This document shows, one piece after another, positions 13,860 through 28,092 of a DNA stretch of 33,385 bases. Each line of letters starts with the position of its first letter. The stretch's first letter is position 1. A model generated the notes under the pieces. The model did no database searches. It was not told the DNA's origin and worked only from the letters and a program-made list of their open reading frames with translations. Source of the stretch: Candidatus Ryanbacteria bacterium RIFCSPHIGHO2_02_FULL_48_12 (GTDB lineage: Bacteria > Patescibacteriota > Minisyncoccia > Ryanbacterales > 2-02-FULL-48-12); NCBI GenBank assembly GCA_001819875.1, contig MHNR01000001.1, positions 44,946 through 78,330 of the forward strand, read 5' to 3'. Position numbers and translations under genes: made by a program.

Positions 13860-14498
13860 TTATACCGCCCATTGCCTACTTGCGAAATCCTCCGGTGTGC
13901 GCATTTCCTTTAATGCATAAAAATAGATGCGCTCAAAAAAATCGCGTACCTCTTTTTTACGCAACTCCTCAAGCGATACTGCAGGGACAATATCTGCCGA
14001 TCGCAACAGCGCACGCACCACTGCCGGCTGTCCTTCGGGCATATACCCAAGGTGTGCAAGCGCCTTTGCTTGAAAGGTATACAAAGTCGGCAGGACATCT
14101 GACGAGCAAAACACTCCTGAACCGACACGTACGAGTGCCGCGCTCAATAGTGTCCAAAGGTCCGGATCTCGCTCTTCTCCCACGGCAACTCCAGAGATAA
14201 AACGCGTGACCGCCGAGAAAGCGTCAAACCGTGGCCCCTCCTCCCCGATCAACGGATAGACGTCCAGCGCATACGCATCAGTGAGACGGTACGATTCTTT
14301 GCCCACGACAAAAGAAATCCGCGCGTGCATAAAAATATCCAGACTGCTACGCAATTTGGATTTTTCAAGACGCACTCCTTTGGCGACCACTGCAATACTG
14401 CCAAAATCTTTAGTATAGAAGCGGATAATCTTATCAGCCTCACCGACTGGACGGGAGGAGAGGACTATCGCCTCGGTCTCATGTATATGGTAAGACAT
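13860..14498 (-). CDS. recO: DNA repair protein RecO
   Basis: A 212-residue RecO, the RecF-pathway mediator that loads RecA onto SSB-coated DNA. The N-terminal OB fold is clear: TEAIVLSSRPVGEADKIIRFYTKDFG, read as TEAIVL...GEADKI...FYTKDFG, then VAKGVR. The helical C-terminal domain carries LYTFQAKALAHLGYMPE. It is shorter than the roughly 240-residue model proteins. It contains a single cysteine, so the four-cysteine zinc site of many RecOs is absent. Its ATG shares one base with the ileS stop (TAATG), implying translational coupling. The next gene starts 12 nt downstream. Confidence 0.92.
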   Translation of the reverse strand: MSYHIHETEAIVLSSRPVGEADKIIRFYTKDFGSIAVVAKGVRLEKSKLRSSLDIFMHARISFVVGKESYRLTDAYALDVYPLIGEEGPRFDAFSAVTRFISGVAVGEERDPDLWTLLSAALVRVGSGVFCSSDVLPTLYTFQAKALAHLGYMPEGQPAVVRALLRSADIVPAVSLEELRKKEVRDFFERIYFYALKEMRTPEDFASRQWAV

Positions 14499-17400
14499 TA
14501 GGATCCGAGTGAGATAGAAACATCCTCCTCACCAAGAGAAATCGTATACTCCCCTTGTCCAGCCAATACCACATCCACATCGCTCGCGCCCACCGCTCTT
14601 TTTATCTCCTCATTGGATTTTTTAAAGAATGGCGCAAGTGTTTCTGAAGAAATATAAATTTTCAGAATCGGTATTTTTTGCTGTGGCACAAACCCGCTCT
14701 TTTTGCGTGCATCCTGCACCCCACGCACAAATTCGCGGAACATGCCTTTTTCCTTGAGTTCTGACGTGATAGTCACATCCAACTCTGCATATTTGCCCTC
14801 CGCAAAGTCGCTTTTTTCTTTCAGATCCTCGATATTAGTGCGTTTTTTTACAATATCACGATACTCTTCGCCTCTCGGAATTATATCTACATGTATATAT
14901 GAAAGAGAAAGTGGCTGACGCACACTGATGCCCAGAGAGCTTCGCTCCGCCAATATCGCCTCCACCGATTTACTAACCCTTGCCATATCTTCACTTACCA
15001 CATTCCAGCCGTCTATCTCACGCGCAAACTCCGGCCACTGCTCCAGATGCACCGACTCTTTGTCTGACTCTTGGCGCACACCCTGATACAAACGCTCTGC
15101 CAAAAACGGCGCAAATGGCGCAATAATTTTTGCGGTCTCGAAAATCGCATAGCGGAGCGTGCTAAGCGCCTCGACTCTTCCCTCCTCTCCTTCTTTGAAT
15201 CTATCACGCGAGTATTGAAGATACACCGTAGAAAACATATCTACAAAATCATTAATAGCACGCACCCCGCGGTCCAGCCGGCAGGCGTCCATAGCACGCG
15301 ATACATTTTGCGAAAGTTGCGAAAGCTCATAGACCAAAAACTTGTCGAGCACATGTGCGGCATGCGAAAGCACAAACGCCGGTACCGCCTCACCGCGATA
15401 CATTGCATAAAACGTAGCGACGTTGGAAAGACGTTGAATAATTTTTTTAAGTATCTCGTCTACCCCGCGCTCGGAAAAATTAAGATCGTCCGCGGCTACC
15501 GCCGGCGAGTTGAGGAGATAGAGACGCAGAGCATCTGCTCCATATTTTGATACCACCTCCATGGGATCGGGATAGTTTTTCAGACGCTTGGACATTTTTT
15601 GTCCGTTCTCGGCAAGGATCAGACCGTTGACCAAGATATGCGTAGAAGCAGGTTTTTGAAACAAGGCACCCGCAAGTACATGCAGGGAATAAAACCAGCC
15701 TCGTGTCTGATCAAGTCCTTCAGCGATAAAATCCGCCGGAAACCCGCGGCCGCTTTGAGGATCAAAATGCGCAAGCGGCTCACCCATATAATGTACCTGT
15801 CCGTAGGGCATAGAGCCTGACTCAAACCAACAATCAAATACCTCGGGGATGCGTTGCATCTCTCCGCCGCACGAGCACTGCAAAGACACCACATCACTAT
15901 ACGGCCGGTGAAAATCCACCTCGCCATCGTTGTTGAATGGATAGTTTGGGAACACCATCTCGCGCATCTCGCCTTGCTGTATATATGAAGTGGGACGCGA
16001 TGCGAGCATGGCCTCGGGAGCAGTAAAGGTAAGCGCCCCTTCGAGCATCCACAAAGGATCGCCATGACTCACAATTAGCACCCGCTCGCCCTCATGACGA
16101 GCGGCAACCTCACGAGCAACCTGCATCATGCGCGCTCGGGCTTGTGCGAGCGACTCCCCGCCATCAGGCACTTTGGTAAATCGTTCCAGCGGCGTTGCAA
16201 AATACGCATAGTATTCAGAAACTTTCTTACCCTCAAAGAGTGGTCCATGATTGAGCTCATTGAGCCGGCTATCATAGGAGATCGGCACACCAAGCACTTT
16301 ACTAAAAATATCCGCCGTCTCTTTGGCACGGATATACTCGGAAGAGTAGATGGCATCCACACCACCACTTGCCTTGAGAGTTTGTGCGCGCTCCTCAATA
16401 GTTTTTTTGCCGTTTTCTGTGACGTGCACATTGGCGTCCTTATGTGTATTTAAGGTTATCTCTCCATGACGCGCGGGGTTGTTCATAATATCAGCCGGCA
16501 TATCATCGCGCTCGCCGTGGCGCGCCAGTATCAAGGTCGTTGGCTTCGTGTATCGCTTTGCCTCCAGATCCTTGAGAGATCCTGCAACTTCTATGGTTTT
16601 GCAATCCGGACATTTCCAGACCGGGATTGGCGCCCCCCAAAACCGAGAGCGCGATATCGCCCAGTCGGGCGCGGTCTCAAGACCATGACCAAATCTCCCC
16701 TCTTTGATGTGTTCGGGTACCCAGGTAATTTGTTTGTTGTAGGTATGCAGGTCATCGCGGATTTGTGCGACATTTACAAACCAAGAAGAGGCCGCATAGT
16801 TAAGAAGCGGCGTATCGCACCGCCAGCAGTGCGGATAGGAGTGCGCGAGCGGCATCTCGGAAAAATATGCATCATGACTTTTAAGATACGCCAAAATCTC
16901 CTCATCAATTTTTCTCTGCAGTGCCGTGTCTTTGGGTTTTACCGCGCGGCCCGCAAAATCTTTAACTTCAGGCACAAATTTGCCGTCTCTCGTGACATGC
17001 TGGACAAACGGCAGGGTAAACTTTTTGCCAAGTTGCATGTCGTCATCGCCAAATGCCGGCGCGATGTGTACCACGCCCGTCCCCTCCTCTGTCTTTACAA
17101 AATCCGCGGCGTAGATCTGCCAGCCATTCTCACGGTTTTTGATATTGGGATCATTTACAAAGTAGTCGAATACTGGTTTATACTTTTTGCCAACAAGGTC
17201 GGAGCCTTTTATAGTCTTAAGTCTTTTAAAGCTAACGTTACCCTCAGCCTCAAAATGTAAATTAAACCCGCCATCATATTTAGCGAATGTCCCACCGAAA
17301 GTTCTGATCAGTACCTCATCATTATCCGCAAAAACAAATATATTCCCCTCTTTAAATCTACCCAAGTTAGATGCACCAACCTTAAAGAATCCATACTCAA

Positions 17401-18157
17401 TACCCCCCCCCACCGCAAGCGCAACATTTCCCGGCAAGGTCCATGGGGTCGTCGTCCAAGCGAGTATATATGTATGCTCATCTGTCACAAAATCCCCGAT
17501 TTTTTGTCCGGGCTCGAGCTGAAACTTCACCGTCACTGATGTATCCGTGATATCTTTGTATCCAAGTGAGACCTCGAAGTTTGCAAGTGTGGTCTCGCAC
17601 CGAGGGCAAAGATGCATGGACTTGTATCCCTCACTAATCAATCCCTTGTCGTAGAGATTTTTAAATATCCACCAGACCGTCTCGGTATACGTGGGATCCA
17701 TGGTCTTGTAATCATGCTCCATGTCCACCCATCGGCCGATACGCGGGATGATTTGTTTCCAATCATCGGCATAACGAAGCACCTCGGTTTTGGCAACCTC
17801 GTTAAACTTGTCTATCCCATACTCGACGATTTCTTTTTTGCTCTTGAGTCCCAGCTTTTGCTCCACTACATTTTCCAAAGGGAGACCGTGACAATCCCAA
17901 CCCCATTTGCGCTCTACATATCTCCCGCGCATCGTCTGATAGCGGGGTACGGCATCCTTGATGATAGAGGCAAGCAAGTGCCCATAGTGCGGCAAACCCG
18001 TTGCAAACGGCGGCCCGTCGTAGAATACAAACGGATCCCTGCCTCTTGTGGCCTCGAGCGATTTTTCAAAAATCTGGCGCTCACGCCAAAAAGCGAGCGT
18101 CTCCTCTTCGCGCTCGGCTATAGTTTTTTGTTTAGCGGGCTGTTCTTTTTGAGCCAT
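14498..18157 (-). CDS. ileS: Isoleucyl-tRNA synthetase with inserted histidine-phosphatase domain
   Basis: Class Ia synthetase for tRNA-Ile, 1219 residues, about 180-200 longer than normal. It has HYGH (57-60), zinc site 1 (CPRC and later CWRC), a CP1 editing domain with WTTTPWTLPGN, and KMSKR (854-858), then the anticodon-binding domain. Zinc site 2 uses C516/C519 (KCPDC) and C761/C763 (CSCGG). Between these pairs lies a complete histidine-phosphatase (phosphoglycerate-mutase-like) domain at about 540-735. It carries RHGE (R546, H547), SSEYIRAKETA, LNELNHG and VSHGD (H698), so all catalytic residues are present. ATG 18157 was chosen because a promoter -10 at 18169-18174 puts the mRNA start downstream of the alternative GTG 18166. 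The stop overlaps the recO start by one base. Confidence 0.97.
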   Translation of the reverse strand: MAQKEQPAKQKTIAEREEETLAFWRERQIFEKSLEATRGRDPFVFYDGPPFATGLPHYGHLLASIIKDAVPRYQTMRGRYVERKWGWDCHGLPLENVVEQKLGLKSKKEIVEYGIDKFNEVAKTEVLRYADDWKQIIPRIGRWVDMEHDYKTMDPTYTETVWWIFKNLYDKGLISEGYKSMHLCPRCETTLANFEVSLGYKDITDTSVTVKFQLEPGQKIGDFVTDEHTYILAWTTTPWTLPGNVALAVGGGIEYGFFKVGASNLGRFKEGNIFVFADNDEVLIRTFGGTFAKYDGGFNLHFEAEGNVSFKRLKTIKGSDLVGKKYKPVFDYFVNDPNIKNRENGWQIYAADFVKTEEGTGVVHIAPAFGDDDMQLGKKFTLPFVQHVTRDGKFVPEVKDFAGRAVKPKDTALQRKIDEEILAYLKSHDAYFSEMPLAHSYPHCWRCDTPLLNYAASSWFVNVAQIRDDLHTYNKQITWVPEHIKEGRFGHGLETAPDWAISRSRFWGAPIPVWKCPDCKTIEVAGSLKDLEAKRYTKPTTLILARHGERDDMPADIMNNPARHGEITLNTHKDANVHVTENGKKTIEERAQTLKASGGVDAIYSSEYIRAKETADIFSKVLGVPISYDSRLNELNHGPLFEGKKVSEYYAYFATPLERFTKVPDGGESLAQARARMMQVAREVAARHEGERVLIVSHGDPLWMLEGALTFTAPEAMLASRPTSYIQQGEMREMVFPNYPFNNDGEVDFHRPYSDVVSLQCSCGGEMQRIPEVFDCWFESGSMPYGQVHYMGEPLAHFDPQSGRGFPADFIAEGLDQTRGWFYSLHVLAGALFQKPASTHILVNGLILAENGQKMSKRLKNYPDPMEVVSKYGADALRLYLLNSPAVAADDLNFSERGVDEILKKIIQRLSNVATFYAMYRGEAVPAFVLSHAAHVLDKFLVYELSQLSQNVSRAMDACRLDRGVRAINDFVDMFSTVYLQYSRDRFKEGEEGRVEALSTLRYAIFETAKIIAPFAPFLAERLYQGVRQESDKESVHLEQWPEFAREIDGWNVVSEDMARVSKSVEAILAERSSLGISVRQPLSLSYIHVDIIPRGEEYRDIVKKRTNIEDLKEKSDFAEGKYAELDVTITSELKEKGMFREFVRGVQDARKKSGFVPQQKIPILKIYISSETLAPFFKKSNEEIKRAVGASDVDVVLAGQGEYTISLGEEDVSISLGS
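15940..16545 (-). other. Histidine-phosphatase (PGM/SixA-like) domain within ileS
   Basis: Within the IleRS reading frame this stretch has the full histidine phosphatase superfamily set. The phosphoacceptor His is in ARHGE at 16511-16525. Next come the substrate-binding Arg in SEYIRAKETADIF, the acidic residue in RLNELNHG, and the second His in VSHGDPLW at about 16058-16075. Normal IleRS sequence resumes with DFHRPYSD. The domain is in frame and undamaged, so it is likely functional. Its substrate is unknown. Confidence 0.9.
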
Positions 18158-18168
18158 ACGATGCACCT

Positions 18169-21235: not shown

Positions 21236-21688
21236 ATGCCATCCCTTACCGAAAACCGAAAAGCGCATTTTGACTATGAGATCCTGGAGACCTTCGAGGC
21301 TGGTTTGGCGTTGAAAGGTTACGAAGCAAAAGCAATACGAAAAGGCATGGCTCGTATTCAGGGCTCCTACATCATTATTCGCGACGGTCGGGCGCTACTC
21401 GTCGGCACGCATATCCCCCCCTATCAAACCGCCAATACCCCCGAGGATTATGACCCGGACAGGACCCGAGAGCTCCTCCTCCATAAGCAAGAAATCCGCT
21501 ATCTTACAGGCAAATCGGCCGAACAGGGGTTGACTTTAGTGCCTCTGGAGGTGTATACTAAGCGCAATCTCATTAAGCTCAAATTTGGCCTTGGACGTGG
21601 CAAAAAGACCATAGACAAACGCCAAAAGATACAAAAACGCGAGGAAGGGAGGCGTATCAACCGTACGCTTAAATACTCGCAGGAATAA
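21236..21688 (+). CDS. smpB: SsrA-binding protein SmpB
   Basis: A 150-residue OB-fold protein that binds the tRNA-like domain of tmRNA and brings it to stalled ribosomes. It has the N-terminal NRKAHFDYEILETFEAGLAL, the core GYEAKAIRKG, and HIPPYQTAN. The C-terminal tail rich in Lys/Arg (GRGKKTIDKRQKIQKREEGR) reaches the decoding centre in the family. The length is normal. The gene is immediately upstream of its RNA partner on the same strand. There is no SD; an extended -10 box 6 nt before the ATG implies a leaderless mRNA. Confidence 0.97.
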   Translation: MPSLTENRKAHFDYEILETFEAGLALKGYEAKAIRKGMARIQGSYIIIRDGRALLVGTHIPPYQTANTPEDYDPDRTRELLLHKQEIRYLTGKSAEQGLTLVPLEVYTKRNLIKLKFGLGRGKKTIDKRQKIQKREEGRRINRTLKYSQE

Positions 21689-21708
21689 TCCTGCCCCGCC
21701 TCTTTTTT
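21679..21708 (+). terminator. Weak terminator overlapping the smpB stop
   Basis: GCAGGA (21679-21684), an ATAA loop and TCCTGC (21689-21694) form a 6-bp hairpin over the stop codon. A T-run (TCTTTTTT) comes after a 6-nt C-rich spacer. The spacer makes it imperfect, so partial readthrough into tmRNA is likely. Confidence 0.45.
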
Positions 21709-21793
21709 ACGACTCATAGTTCCATAGGCAGTACATCAGCAACGATTTGATATTCAGATGTGCCCTGCATGGAAGTTGTCGCAGGAAAGATGC

Positions 21794-22150
21794 GGGGACG
21801 ACAGGCTTCGACGGAGGTAAAACCTTAAAAATCAGGCAGGAGCGCAGGACTCCTTTACCAAACTGCAAACGAATAAGTGCAAACTTATTTACAAAAGCTT
21901 TTTCCGCTGAACCGGCGCTTGCGCTTGCTTAGTGGCAACGAGCTCTTCTCTGGATTCGTCCAGAGCATCGGATCTGCTCACGCTCGTACGGCAGAACCCC
22001 GGTGTTATATCTTCGAGCTCGGCAATCTCGACGTCCGATACAGATTGCGACATTATCGGGCAACCCCTTTCGCTTTTAGTGAAATAAGCCTGTAAAACGT
22101 TTTTATGGCCTAGCCTCTCGGATGGGAGTTCAACTCTCCCCGTCTCCACC
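21794..22150 (+). ncRNA. ssrA: tmRNA (SsrA)
   Basis: About 357 nt. The 5' end GGGGACG pairs with CGTCTCC at 22141-22147 to make the acceptor stem, followed by ACC. The canonical 5' sequence ACAGGCTTCGACGG is present, and the T arm is GGGAG-TTCAACT-CTCCC at 22124-22140. The resume codon GCA at 21879 opens the tag ANLFTKAFSAEPALALA, ending at TAG 21930-21932. The tag ends in ALALA, close to the usual ALAA degron. It acts with SmpB to rescue stalled ribosomes. The discriminator and CCA are only partly encoded (ACC then G). No clear promoter abuts the 5' end, so a processed precursor is likely. Confidence 0.95.
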
Positions 22151-22153
22151 GCG

Positions 22154-22675
22154 ATTAACAAACCGACCATAGACCACCCAAGAATCAATAACCAAATACG
22201 GGTTCCACAGGTCCGCGTCATAGGCGCGGATGATTCGAATCTTGGCGTTATGGATACCTCGAAAGCTCTCGAGCTTTCCTTGGAGCAAGGTCTGGATCTC
22301 ATAGAAGTTGCCGCGAAAGCCGTGCCGCCGGTAGTCCGGATTATGGACTATGGCAAGTATCAGTACCAAAAAGAAAAAGAGGCGCGGCAGTCGGCAAAAA
22401 AGCAAAAAGAGATCGAGATAAAAGGGGTGCGCATCGGGCTCAATACCTCGCTTCATGATATGGAGCTCAAAGCCCGGGCCGCCGAAGAGTTTTTGGCAGA
22501 GTCCAACAAGGTCCGCGTCGAGTTTATCCTGCGCGGCAGAGCGAAATATTTAGACAGAAACTTTATCCAAGGACGCCTCGATACATTTTTAAAACTTATT
22601 ACCACCCCATACAAAGTGACCGCCCCTGCCCTCAAAGGCCCACGCGGACTCAATATGACTATAGAGAAGGAATAA
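22154..22675 (+). CDS. infC: Translation initiation factor IF-3, probable AUU start
   Basis: Binds the 30S subunit, blocks premature 50S joining and proofreads the start codon. The frame holds the full IF3 N-domain (RINNQIRVPQVRVIGADDSNLG), then DLIEVA, the lysine-rich linker and the C-domain ending GPRGLNMTIEKE. The first ATG (22250) lies inside the N-domain, after about 32 conserved residues. Upstream to the in-frame stop at 22085 there is no ATG, GTG or TTG. ATT 22154 is the best start: it gives 173 residues, the normal length, and AUU is the known infC start in enterobacteria. It begins 3 nt after tmRNA. There is no SD. AUA 22169 or AUC 22184 are less likely alternatives. Confidence 0.9.
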   Translation: MNKPTIDHPRINNQIRVPQVRVIGADDSNLGVMDTSKALELSLEQGLDLIEVAAKAVPPVVRIMDYGKYQYQKEKEARQSAKKQKEIEIKGVRIGLNTSLHDMELKARAAEEFLAESNKVRVEFILRGRAKYLDRNFIQGRLDTFLKLITTPYKVTAPALKGPRGLNMTIEKE

Positions 22676-22681
22676 CCGACC

Positions 22682-22876
22682 ATGGCAAAAACCAACAAAT
22701 CAGTATCCAAACGAATCAAAGTTACCAAAAACGGCAAGGCGCTCCGGCGTTCTTCGGGTCAGAATCATTTCAATGCCAAGGCTCGACGCACCAAACAGCT
22801 CGGCAAAAAAGGCATGACTGGATTCGTCCAAGAAAAAGAGACTCTGCGCCGTTATCCCGTTTCCATACATGCATAG
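22682..22876 (+). CDS. rpmI: 50S ribosomal protein L35
   Basis: A 64-residue highly basic protein, MAKTNKSVSKRIKVTKNGK onward, with the family's RRSSGQNHFNAKARRTKQLG core. Length and position between infC and rplT are canonical. An AAGGA sequence about 9 nt before ATG 22682 overlaps the end of infC and is a plausible SD. Expression is probably coupled to infC, from which it is separated by 6 nt. Confidence 0.96.
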   Translation: MAKTNKSVSKRIKVTKNGKALRRSSGQNHFNAKARRTKQLGKKGMTGFVQEKETLRRYPVSIHA

Positions 22877-22898: not shown

Positions 22899-23252
22899 AT
22901 GACACGCGTAAAACGAGGAACTATATCTGTAAAGCGCCGCCGCAAGGTACTCAAGCAAACCAAGGGGTTTCGTTGGGGACGCAAATCAAAAGAGCGCGCC
23001 GCCCGCGAAGGACTCCTGCATGCCGGCGTCAACCGTTTCCAGGACAATCGCAAGAAAAAGCGAACTGCCCGTAAGCTCTGGGAGATCAAGATCAATGCCG
23101 CCGCCCGTTTGCACGGCATCTCCTACAGTAAGCTTATGGGAGCACTCAAAAAAGCAAGCATCGAGATTGATCGTAAGATCCTCGCTGAGCTCGCCGTAAA
23201 GCACCCGAAAGCATTTGAAATGATCGTCAAAAAAGCAGTCCCTGCCAAGTAA
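22899..23252 (+). CDS. rplT: 50S ribosomal protein L20
   Basis: A 117-residue basic rRNA-binding protein needed early in 50S assembly. It has MTRVKRGTISVKRRRKVLKQ at the N-terminus, followed by TKGFRWGRKSKERAAREG, and LWEIKINAAARLHGISYSK later. Length is standard. It is the last gene of infC-rpmI-rplT, and a terminator hairpin overlaps its stop codon. In other bacteria L20 represses this operon by binding leader RNA. Here tmRNA occupies the usual leader position, so any such site would have to lie inside the coding region (inference). Confidence 0.97.
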   Translation: MTRVKRGTISVKRRRKVLKQTKGFRWGRKSKERAAREGLLHAGVNRFQDNRKKKRTARKLWEIKINAAARLHGISYSKLMGALKKASIEIDRKILAELAVKHPKAFEMIVKKAVPAK

Positions 23253-26306: not shown

Positions 26307-27674
26307 CTACTCTGCCAAAATAAAACTATCGCCCAGGTGCGGTGCGAGCGCCTCAAGACCGAGATTGTCTTTGATGCGCTGTACCAGATACAGCGCCGCT
26401 TTTGGCTCACCCTGCACTACAAATACTTTTTTGAGTCCTTCACGAGCTCCTGCTACATAATCAAACAACATATCTGAATCCGCATGTGCCGAGTATGAGC
26501 CAATATCATAGGCTTTGGCATGAATAGGTATCCGCTCTCCGTGAATAACCGCCTCGGATGCTCCCTCGAGGATCCTACGCCCCAGCGACCCGGATGCCTG
26601 ATACCCAACAAACAAAATAGCGTTTTTAGAATCCGGTAAATATCGGCGCGCATGATGGAGTATCCTTCCTCCTTGCATCATACCCGCCCCTGCCATGATA
26701 ATTTTTGGTGCTGGAACATCGTTGATTGCCTTGGAATCATCAGTCGACTTGGTGAGTTTGAGCCCGGGAAATTTAAAAAGGTCGTCTCCTGACTGAATGA
26801 GCGCTTGAGCATCTTTATTGAAATACGCACTGTAATTGCGGTATACCGTAGTTGCATTAATGGCAAGGGGTGAGTCGATAAATACCGGTACACGCGGGAT
26901 ACGGCCGTGCTCTACAAGATCATTGAGTTCAAACAAAAGCTCCTGCGTACGCTCCAAGCTAAACGCCGGAATCATAAGTGTACCCCCCGCCTTAATCGTG
27001 TCCTCAATAACCCGCTCTAGTTTAATCTTGCGATCGGCTTTGTCCTCATGGATCCTGTCTCCATACGCCGACTCAATGGTCAGATACTCAATTCCTGTCA
27101 CTTGCTCTTTCGGTGAAAGAATCGGTGTAGGTGAATTACCAAGATCGCCGGTAAACGCGAGACGTACATGTGTACCATTATTATCAGCATCAATATCTAC
27201 GATGGCAGATCCAAGAATATGCCCTGCATCCCGAAGGATCAGCGAAAGATTGCCTATAGTAATCTTTTGCCCATAGGGAACCCCCTGCCACATTGAGGCG
27301 GCTTTTTCTATATCTTCCTCCGAATAAAAAAGTTTTTCCTCATGGTGGCGCGCTTCTTTTTCCATAATACCCAACGAGTCGCGGAGCATAATGTTGGAAA
27401 AATCTTTGGTGGGCGGTGTAGAATAAATAGTCCCTTTAAATCCGTCACGCACCAGCTTGGGTACGCGACCAATATGGTCCATATGTCCGTGCGTTACAAA
27501 CAGGGCATCGATCGAGATGGGGTCAAAAGGAAACTTGTCGACGTTACGCATCTCACAAAACCGCGGGCACTGGAACATCCCGCAATCTATCAAGATACGT
27601 ACTGTGTCTGTTTCCAAAAGATAACATGCCCCCGTAACCTCTTGCGCGCCCCCAAAAAAAGTAAGTTTAACCAT
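26307..27674 (-). CDS. MBL-fold beta-CASP ribonuclease (CPSF/Ysh1-like)
   Basis: A 455-residue metallo-beta-lactamase ribonuclease with the full order of domains. The N-terminus KLTFFGGAQEVTGACYLLE leads into HGHMDH (62-67), the zinc site. A beta-CASP insertion with ERTQELLFELNDL follows. The RMMBL C-terminus has SYSAHAD with later FVVQGEP. This is the YsxC-unrelated, CPSF73-like class of RNA exo/endonucleases widespread in bacteria and archaea. It is not RNase J, which is longer and has a distinct C-terminal domain. The frame extends to 27731, but ATG 27674, 1 nt after the upstream stop, gives the family N-terminus. Confidence 0.93.
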   Translation of the reverse strand: MVKLTFFGGAQEVTGACYLLETDTVRILIDCGMFQCPRFCEMRNVDKFPFDPISIDALFVTHGHMDHIGRVPKLVRDGFKGTIYSTPPTKDFSNIMLRDSLGIMEKEARHHEEKLFYSEEDIEKAASMWQGVPYGQKITIGNLSLILRDAGHILGSAIVDIDADNNGTHVRLAFTGDLGNSPTPILSPKEQVTGIEYLTIESAYGDRIHEDKADRKIKLERVIEDTIKAGGTLMIPAFSLERTQELLFELNDLVEHGRIPRVPVFIDSPLAINATTVYRNYSAYFNKDAQALIQSGDDLFKFPGLKLTKSTDDSKAINDVPAPKIIMAGAGMMQGGRILHHARRYLPDSKNAILFVGYQASGSLGRRILEGASEAVIHGERIPIHAKAYDIGSYSAHADSDMLFDYVAGAREGLKKVFVVQGEPKAALYLVQRIKDNLGLEALAPHLGDSFILAE

Positions 27675-27675
27675 A

Positions 27676-28092
27676 TTAGGCTTTATGTCTAGTATATATG
27701 CGACCCCCCAGATACGCAGCCGCGCCGACAAGATCTGCTAAGAGGTCTCCCATAGTATCTGTAAGACCCAACTGCATACGAAATACAAACCTAGTTGGAA
27801 AAAATAATGCATCTGAGACAAATTCCCCCCACTCCCATACCACGCCTATAATCATGGCGATACCCAGGAGGGAAGAGAAATAGAGCCATCGCGGCATCGA
27901 GACATGTGACTGGGGCGCTACCAACTGGTACCCATACGCAACCACCATAGCGACCCAGAAACCGCCTGATGCATGCATGACAATATCAATCCACCACAGT
28001 TTATGATACCATTGGTAGCTCAACCCGGCGACATGAACCGCCACAATAAGAATGAAAAAAGCGATTATCGCTTTTTTGCTAGGTAATTGCAT
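27676..28092 (-). CDS. YjdF/VanZ-like membrane protein (DUF2238-like)
   Basis: A 138-residue membrane protein with four helices. It carries conserved polar residues: DIVMHASGGF (about 36-45), VVWEWGEFVSD (about 84-94) and GLTDTMGDLLADLVGAA (about 109-125). This D...H, E-x-x-E-x-x-x-D, D-x-x-x-D pattern matches the DUF2238/YjdF and VanZ-like group; the molecular function is unknown. ATG 28092 is chosen over the longer frame (to 28167), which runs into the structured RNA-like element. A 10-bp palindrome that resembles a terminator lies in codons 6-13. The RNase gene follows by 1 nt. Confidence 0.75.
   Translation of the reverse strand: MQLPSKKAIIAFFILIVAVHVAGLSYQWYHKLWWIDIVMHASGGFWVAMVVAYGYQLVAPQSHVSMPRWLYFSSLLGIAMIIGVVWEWGEFVSDALFFPTRFVFRMQLGLTDTMGDLLADLVGAAAYLGGRIYTRHKA

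Follow-up and report, generated by a model that had tools for sequence, protein, structure and literature searches.

The gene for translation initiation factor IF3 (infC) lies almost against the tmRNA gene (ssrA) in the stretch of 33,385 nucleotides analyzed here (the window, G000:C1:44946-78330, within a 0.99 Mb genome whose closest named relatives are Parcubacteria/Paceibacteria MAGs), and our data indicate that it starts at a non-AUG codon disfavored by IF3 itself, most likely AUA 22169. We infer that read-through from the ssrA promoter drives ssrA, infC, rpmI, and rplT, that translation would begin on an unstructured leader devoid of a Shine-Dalgarno (SD) sequence, and that, by homology with known systems, rising IF3 would repress its own synthesis through the weak start codon. 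We assign this reading as a whole a probability of about 0.6. A weak infC start is a known principle, and near-fusion to ssrA is an unusual setting for it.

Table 1 Features of the smpB-rplT region of the window
Feature	Position	Strand	Evidence
smpB (partner protein of tmRNA)	21236..21688	+	ATG start; Pfam SmpB E 1.2e-49
ssrA, tmRNA gene	21794..22150	+	ARAGORN; Rfam RF00023; discriminator A22148
Intergenic stretch GCGATTAACAAACCGACC, complete if AUA is the start	22151..22168	+	Sequence; terminator/promoter scan
ATT, start proposed earlier; less likely alternative	22154..22156	+	In frame; not conserved in four nearest relatives
ATA, most likely infC start codon	22169..22171	+	Aligns with ATC/ATC/ATC/ATA of L015, L016, L024, L038
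infC (IF3), most likely extent	22169..22675	+	IF3_N E 1.9e-27; IF3_C E 5.1e-11
rpmI (L35)	22682..22876	+	ATG start; AAGGA 10 nt upstream; Pfam Ribosomal_L35p
rplT (L20)	22899..23252	+	ATG start; Pfam Ribosomal_L20 E 6.1e-33

Gene content of the locus

Five genes follow one another on the + strand in the order smpB, ssrA, infC, rpmI, rplT (Table 1). ARAGORN called the tmRNA at 21794-22150 with the tag ANLFTKAFSAEPALALA followed by a stop, and Rfam model RF00023 matched 21794-22151 over its full length (1-374 of 374) at 102 bits versus a gathering score of 47, so that a full-length model match and a tag reading frame both identify ssrA. Its acceptor stem finishes in TCTCC, followed by the discriminator A22148 and by C22149, C22150, and G22151; since the 3' end reads ACCG, the CCA of ssrA is not fully encoded. 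The smpB-ssrA gene pair is well known in bacteria, and the window resembles it in having smpB 105 nt upstream of ssrA (with TACAAT 6 nt ahead of the smpB ATG, a leaderless-like arrangement) but differs in that infC follows ssrA. A literature search for ssrA and infC as neighbors found nothing on point, and a plasmid collection searched with the ssrA-infC junction gave no match, as expected.

Both IF3 domains scored above their cut-offs (IF3_N 95.6 bits; IF3_C 42.8 bits, spanning model positions 1-46 of 86). Elsewhere in the window (14498-18166, minus strand), an isoleucyl-tRNA synthetase ORF of 1222 aa encodes a class I synthetase in which a histidine-phosphatase domain (His_Phos_1, E 4.3e-30) is embedded at residues 566-717.

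The infC start codon

The infC frame is open after TAA 22085, from which it reads ACKTFLWPSLSDGSSTLPVSTAINKPTIDHPRINNQIRV..., and its first ATG, GTG, or TTG is the ATG at 22250, inside IF3_N. This confirms, by direct reading of the frame, the statement of an earlier note on this DNA that none of these codons occurs between the two positions. A start at ATG 22250 was rejected, as it would delete the conserved RINNQIRV strand, the first of IF3_N. The earlier proposal of a non-AUG start of the type IF3 discriminates against is likewise upheld, both by the lack of a usual start codon ahead of the domain and by the class-wide pattern described below.

Two AUH codons lie between the tmRNA and the RIN motif: ATT 22154, which the earlier note took as the start and which is indeed in frame and 3 nt beyond C22150 of the tmRNA, and ATA 22169, which it missed. 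We aligned five genomes at RIN (the window, L015, L016, and L024 of the same family, and L038 of a sister family). At the position of 22169, four codons ahead of the R of RIN, all four relatives carry AUC or AUA (ATC CAA AAC ATT CGC, ATC CAA CAC TCC CGC, ATC CAA AAT CCT CGC, and ATA CAG CAT CCT CGC, compared with ATA GAC CAC CCA AGA in the window), and upstream of this codon we found no likeness among the five. In L038, a stop stands six codons above the aligned ATA, with TTA as the sole start-like codon between them. Because an AUH codon is conserved here in all five genomes of this small alignment, with nothing alike upstream, AUA 22169 is the likely start, judged from comparison with four close relatives; the tmRNA-infC gap would therefore be 18 nt rather than 3, and the start codon chosen earlier was probably misplaced by five codons.

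Initiation at AUU 22154 appears unlikely by comparison, the codon being unconserved within the family, where only 22169 is AUH in 5/5 aligned genomes. In its favor, apart from its place in frame directly after the tmRNA, the window sequence ATT AAC AAA CCG resembles the ATT AAG AAA CCG start of the more distant L018 and similar members, and starts directly after the tmRNA are known in L147 and L170. A cut after the discriminator would then yield a near-leaderless CCGCG-AUU message, doubly disfavored by IF3 through its weak codon and almost absent leader (IF3 inhibits leaderless mRNA translation in E. coli; review PMC9031893), but such processing meets the difficulty that no RNase Z was found above cut-off (see below).

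Weak infC starts across the class

The favored reading, with a non-AUG start at AUA 22169, fits a broader pattern among 152 infC loci of Paceibacteria (one per genome). No ATG, GTG, or TTG occurs in the open N-terminal frame at 58 of these loci, and ATG is lacking at 114, whereas the usual start was absent from none of the judgeable smpB (0/50), rpmI (0/71), and rplT (0/71) genes of the same loci, a contrast that argues against chance. Where a locus offers only a single one of the seven start codons considered, this is TTG (13), ATC (11), ATG (10), ATT (9), CTG (4), ATA (2), or GTG (1). These start-codon counts over the 152 loci indicate that weak infC starts are habitual throughout the class. 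In roughly two fifths of class genomes, gene callers restricted to ATG, GTG, and TTG will thus trim the start of IF3 or overlook it, and the pattern lends itself to direct testing through the class-wide contrast of infC with smpB, rpmI, and rplT. Separately, an IF3_N match was absent at E 0.001 from 11 of 208 class genomes (e.g., G022 and G111), some of which are rated 99-100% complete.

IF3 and control of its own synthesis

In E. coli, infC is preceded by thrS and followed by rpmI and rplT. The window shares the AUH start disfavored by IF3 and the two downstream genes but differs in its AUA (or AUU) in place of AUU, in having no detected SD, in the replacement of thrS by ssrA upstream, and in several replaced IF3 arginines. 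Relative to the E. coli protein (in a numbering that agrees with structure alignments), the window IF3 keeps K110, R131, R133, and R168, while the C-domain residues R99, R116, R129, and R147 have become G, E, I, and T; across the class (150 aligned rows), these same four arginines are mostly replaced and R133 is nearly invariant. E. coli mutants link C-domain residues to codon choice, and since these four arginines are missing, start-codon discrimination may differ here.

Autoregulation through a weak start codon is known for infC in E. coli, where the gene starts at ATT (Butler 1986, 1987; Sacerdot 1996, cited in PMC5472188), and in Streptomyces, where it starts at ATC (PMC5472188). The Streptomyces gene shows that an AUH start extends beyond enterobacteria, and AUC is also the codon found in the window's nearest relatives; it differs in that PMC5472188 describes no ssrA link and in the C-domain of Paceibacteria IF3. 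By analogy with these two systems, we consider it fairly probable that the window infC may be autoregulated in the same way.

Transcription of infC

The gap preceding AUA 22169 (GCGATTAACAAACCGACC, 18 nt) holds no SD-like motif, no -10-like hexamer, and no terminator, and a scan found no terminator anywhere between ssrA and the infC start. No -10 box lies 5-9 nt ahead of either 22154 or 22169, the arrangement expected of a leaderless gene, and no hexamer with A2 and T6 directly precedes 22169. The earlier claim that infC has no room for its own promoter or SD is supported, and both motifs are absent from the gap. With no -10 box, SD, or terminator in 18 nt, transcription of the window infC is most simply explained by read-through from ssrA, and on these sequence features ssrA, infC, rpmI, and rplT quite likely form one transcription unit from the ssrA promoter.

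The same note held that infC must be cotranscribed with the tmRNA, which stands for a few tight junctions but not generally, as relatives with room show a promoter-like sequence of infC's own. Members of the same order (family f3) carry TTGACT-17-TACACT or TTGACT-17-TAGACT (L033, L035; L030 is similar) followed after 9 nt by TTG, and other relatives carry TGCTACAAT or TAAGAT 5-8 nt ahead of the infC start. Class-wide, a -10 box (5 of 6 matches) stood 5-9 nt before a start-like codon at 33 loci versus 20 ± 3.9 in shuffles, a count reached in 0/200 shuffles, although the excess is a moderate one and, among loci with a uniquely assignable start, is spread over spacings of 4-24 nt. SD-like words ahead of 53 assignable infC starts numbered 0 versus 3.1 expected. 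The infC genes of many relatives are thus probably leaderless and transcribed from promoters of their own, as far as such motifs tell; that all infC genes are leaderless is only partly supported, given the moderate and dispersed -10 excess.

These relatives, with their promoter-like sequences and -10 excess, together with the additional promoters of Streptomyces infC (PMC5472188), are consistent with a promoter for the window infC inside the 3' part of ssrA, which would leave the gene untied to tmRNA transcription. We consider this rather improbable: no hexamer of the required form directly precedes 22169, and a simple scan of 21600-22720 found no sigma70-like site on the + strand, though that scan misses even ssrA's own promoter.

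Within the sampled part of the window genome (~256 kb from outside the window), -10 boxes 6-9 nt before starts occurred in excess (20 versus about 5 expected), while SD words before genes were barely above chance (28 versus 21); leaderless genes are therefore probably common in this genome. The 3' end of its 16S rRNA (G000, L251) reads GTGGAATTTCTCCTTTTAAGG rather than the usual GGATCACCTCCTTT, an alteration of the anti-SD core. No pertinent paper came up in a literature search for leaderless genes in Patescibacteria. The many relatives with a -10 box directly before the infC start resemble known cases of leaderless mRNA translation, but the window has no such box, and an SD-less leader of 18-20 nt is more likely there.

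Processing at the tmRNA 3' end

An encoded CCA is missing from most of the tRNAs sampled in the window genome, and a CCA-adding enzyme is present. No RNase Z scored above the curated cut-off in the window genome and 35 relatives (36 genomes), and RNase Z was accordingly set aside as the tmRNA processing enzyme; weak metallo-beta-lactamase matches were partial or distant (best in G016, G024, and G035, with weaker two-part matches in G003 and G001) and look mostly like other metallo-beta-lactamases. The window also encodes, at 26307-27731 on the minus strand, a ribonuclease-like MBL/beta-CASP/RMMBL protein of 474 aa, a candidate RNA-processing nuclease.

The earlier note had envisaged that endonucleolytic maturation of tmRNA releases an mRNA beginning at about GCG-AUU. 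This is unlikely, since a cut after the discriminator leaves CCGCGAUU... and the 36 genomes yielded no clear RNase Z. Counted to AUA, a clean cut at that point would give CCGCGAUUAACAAACCGACC-AUA, a 20-nt leader, and the predicted fold of this presumed processing product shows no pairing in the leader, both candidate start codons included. A structured leader was discounted, the fold not being unusual (z -1.1). Maturation of the tmRNA might release an infC mRNA, though on weaker grounds than co-transcription. It is doubtful that, in several Paceibacteria lineages, maturation of the tmRNA 3' end makes an infC mRNA that can be translated, with the supply of both tmRNA and IF3 set by a single transcript and a single cut while a weak start or missing leader kept IF3 under its own control. 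Were this true, ribosome rescue would be coupled with start selection and ribosome splitting through the joint supply of tmRNA and IF3.

Origin and meaning of the ssrA-infC junction

By ARAGORN, 52 of the 152 loci have a same-strand ssrA no more than 400 nt upstream of infC, and Rfam adds seven more (L009, L040, L042, L043, L161, L191, and L193), a count that is a lower bound because some loci stop at contig ends. The two genes are also near each other in some genomes of other classes of the phylum, by coordinates (e.g., G228, G244, G258, G261, G276, and G288); their linkage is old. As to whether the junction is conserved among relatives, adjacency is common but tightness is not: within the family, 59, 85, and 145 nt separate the tmRNA from the aligned start, which indicates that near-fusion was derived in the window lineage. 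Other families do have very tight junctions, at L147 (ATG 1 nt after the tmRNA) and L170 (ATG, 2 nt), with further ones at L193 (TTG, about 9 nt) and L021 (TTG, 10 nt), and near-fusion to the tmRNA is an uncommon arrangement that turned up independently in a few cases. The exact window junction was found in one genome only, as a small deletion misassembled into a metagenome-derived contig would produce, but such an error is highly improbable given the contig's 102,787 bases, the genome's completeness of 100 and contamination of 1.17, the equally tight junctions in other families, and the intactness of both ssrA and infC.

The ancestral state appears to have been ssrA followed by infC with its own promoter and an often leaderless or near-leaderless mRNA; in the window lineage, the gap would have shrunk and any infC promoter been lost. 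Genome compaction might account for the adjacency by itself, as an old neighborhood whose gap was shortened by deletion and which carries no regulatory link between rescue and IF3. We hold this, which is compatible with co-transcription, to be slightly better than an even chance. Gaps range from about 1 nt to >300 nt among relatives and many class members have no nearby ssrA, a variability that speaks against selection for a fixed junction; against compaction alone, near-fusions in several families (f1, f4, f19, f76, and f80) indicate that the unit has repeatedly been at least tolerated.

Our data extend IF3 self-control by weak start codons, at the strength given above, to a large uncultured class. 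They also point to a natural tmRNA-IF3 transcription unit, a possible means of setting ribosome rescue and the fidelity of initiation together.
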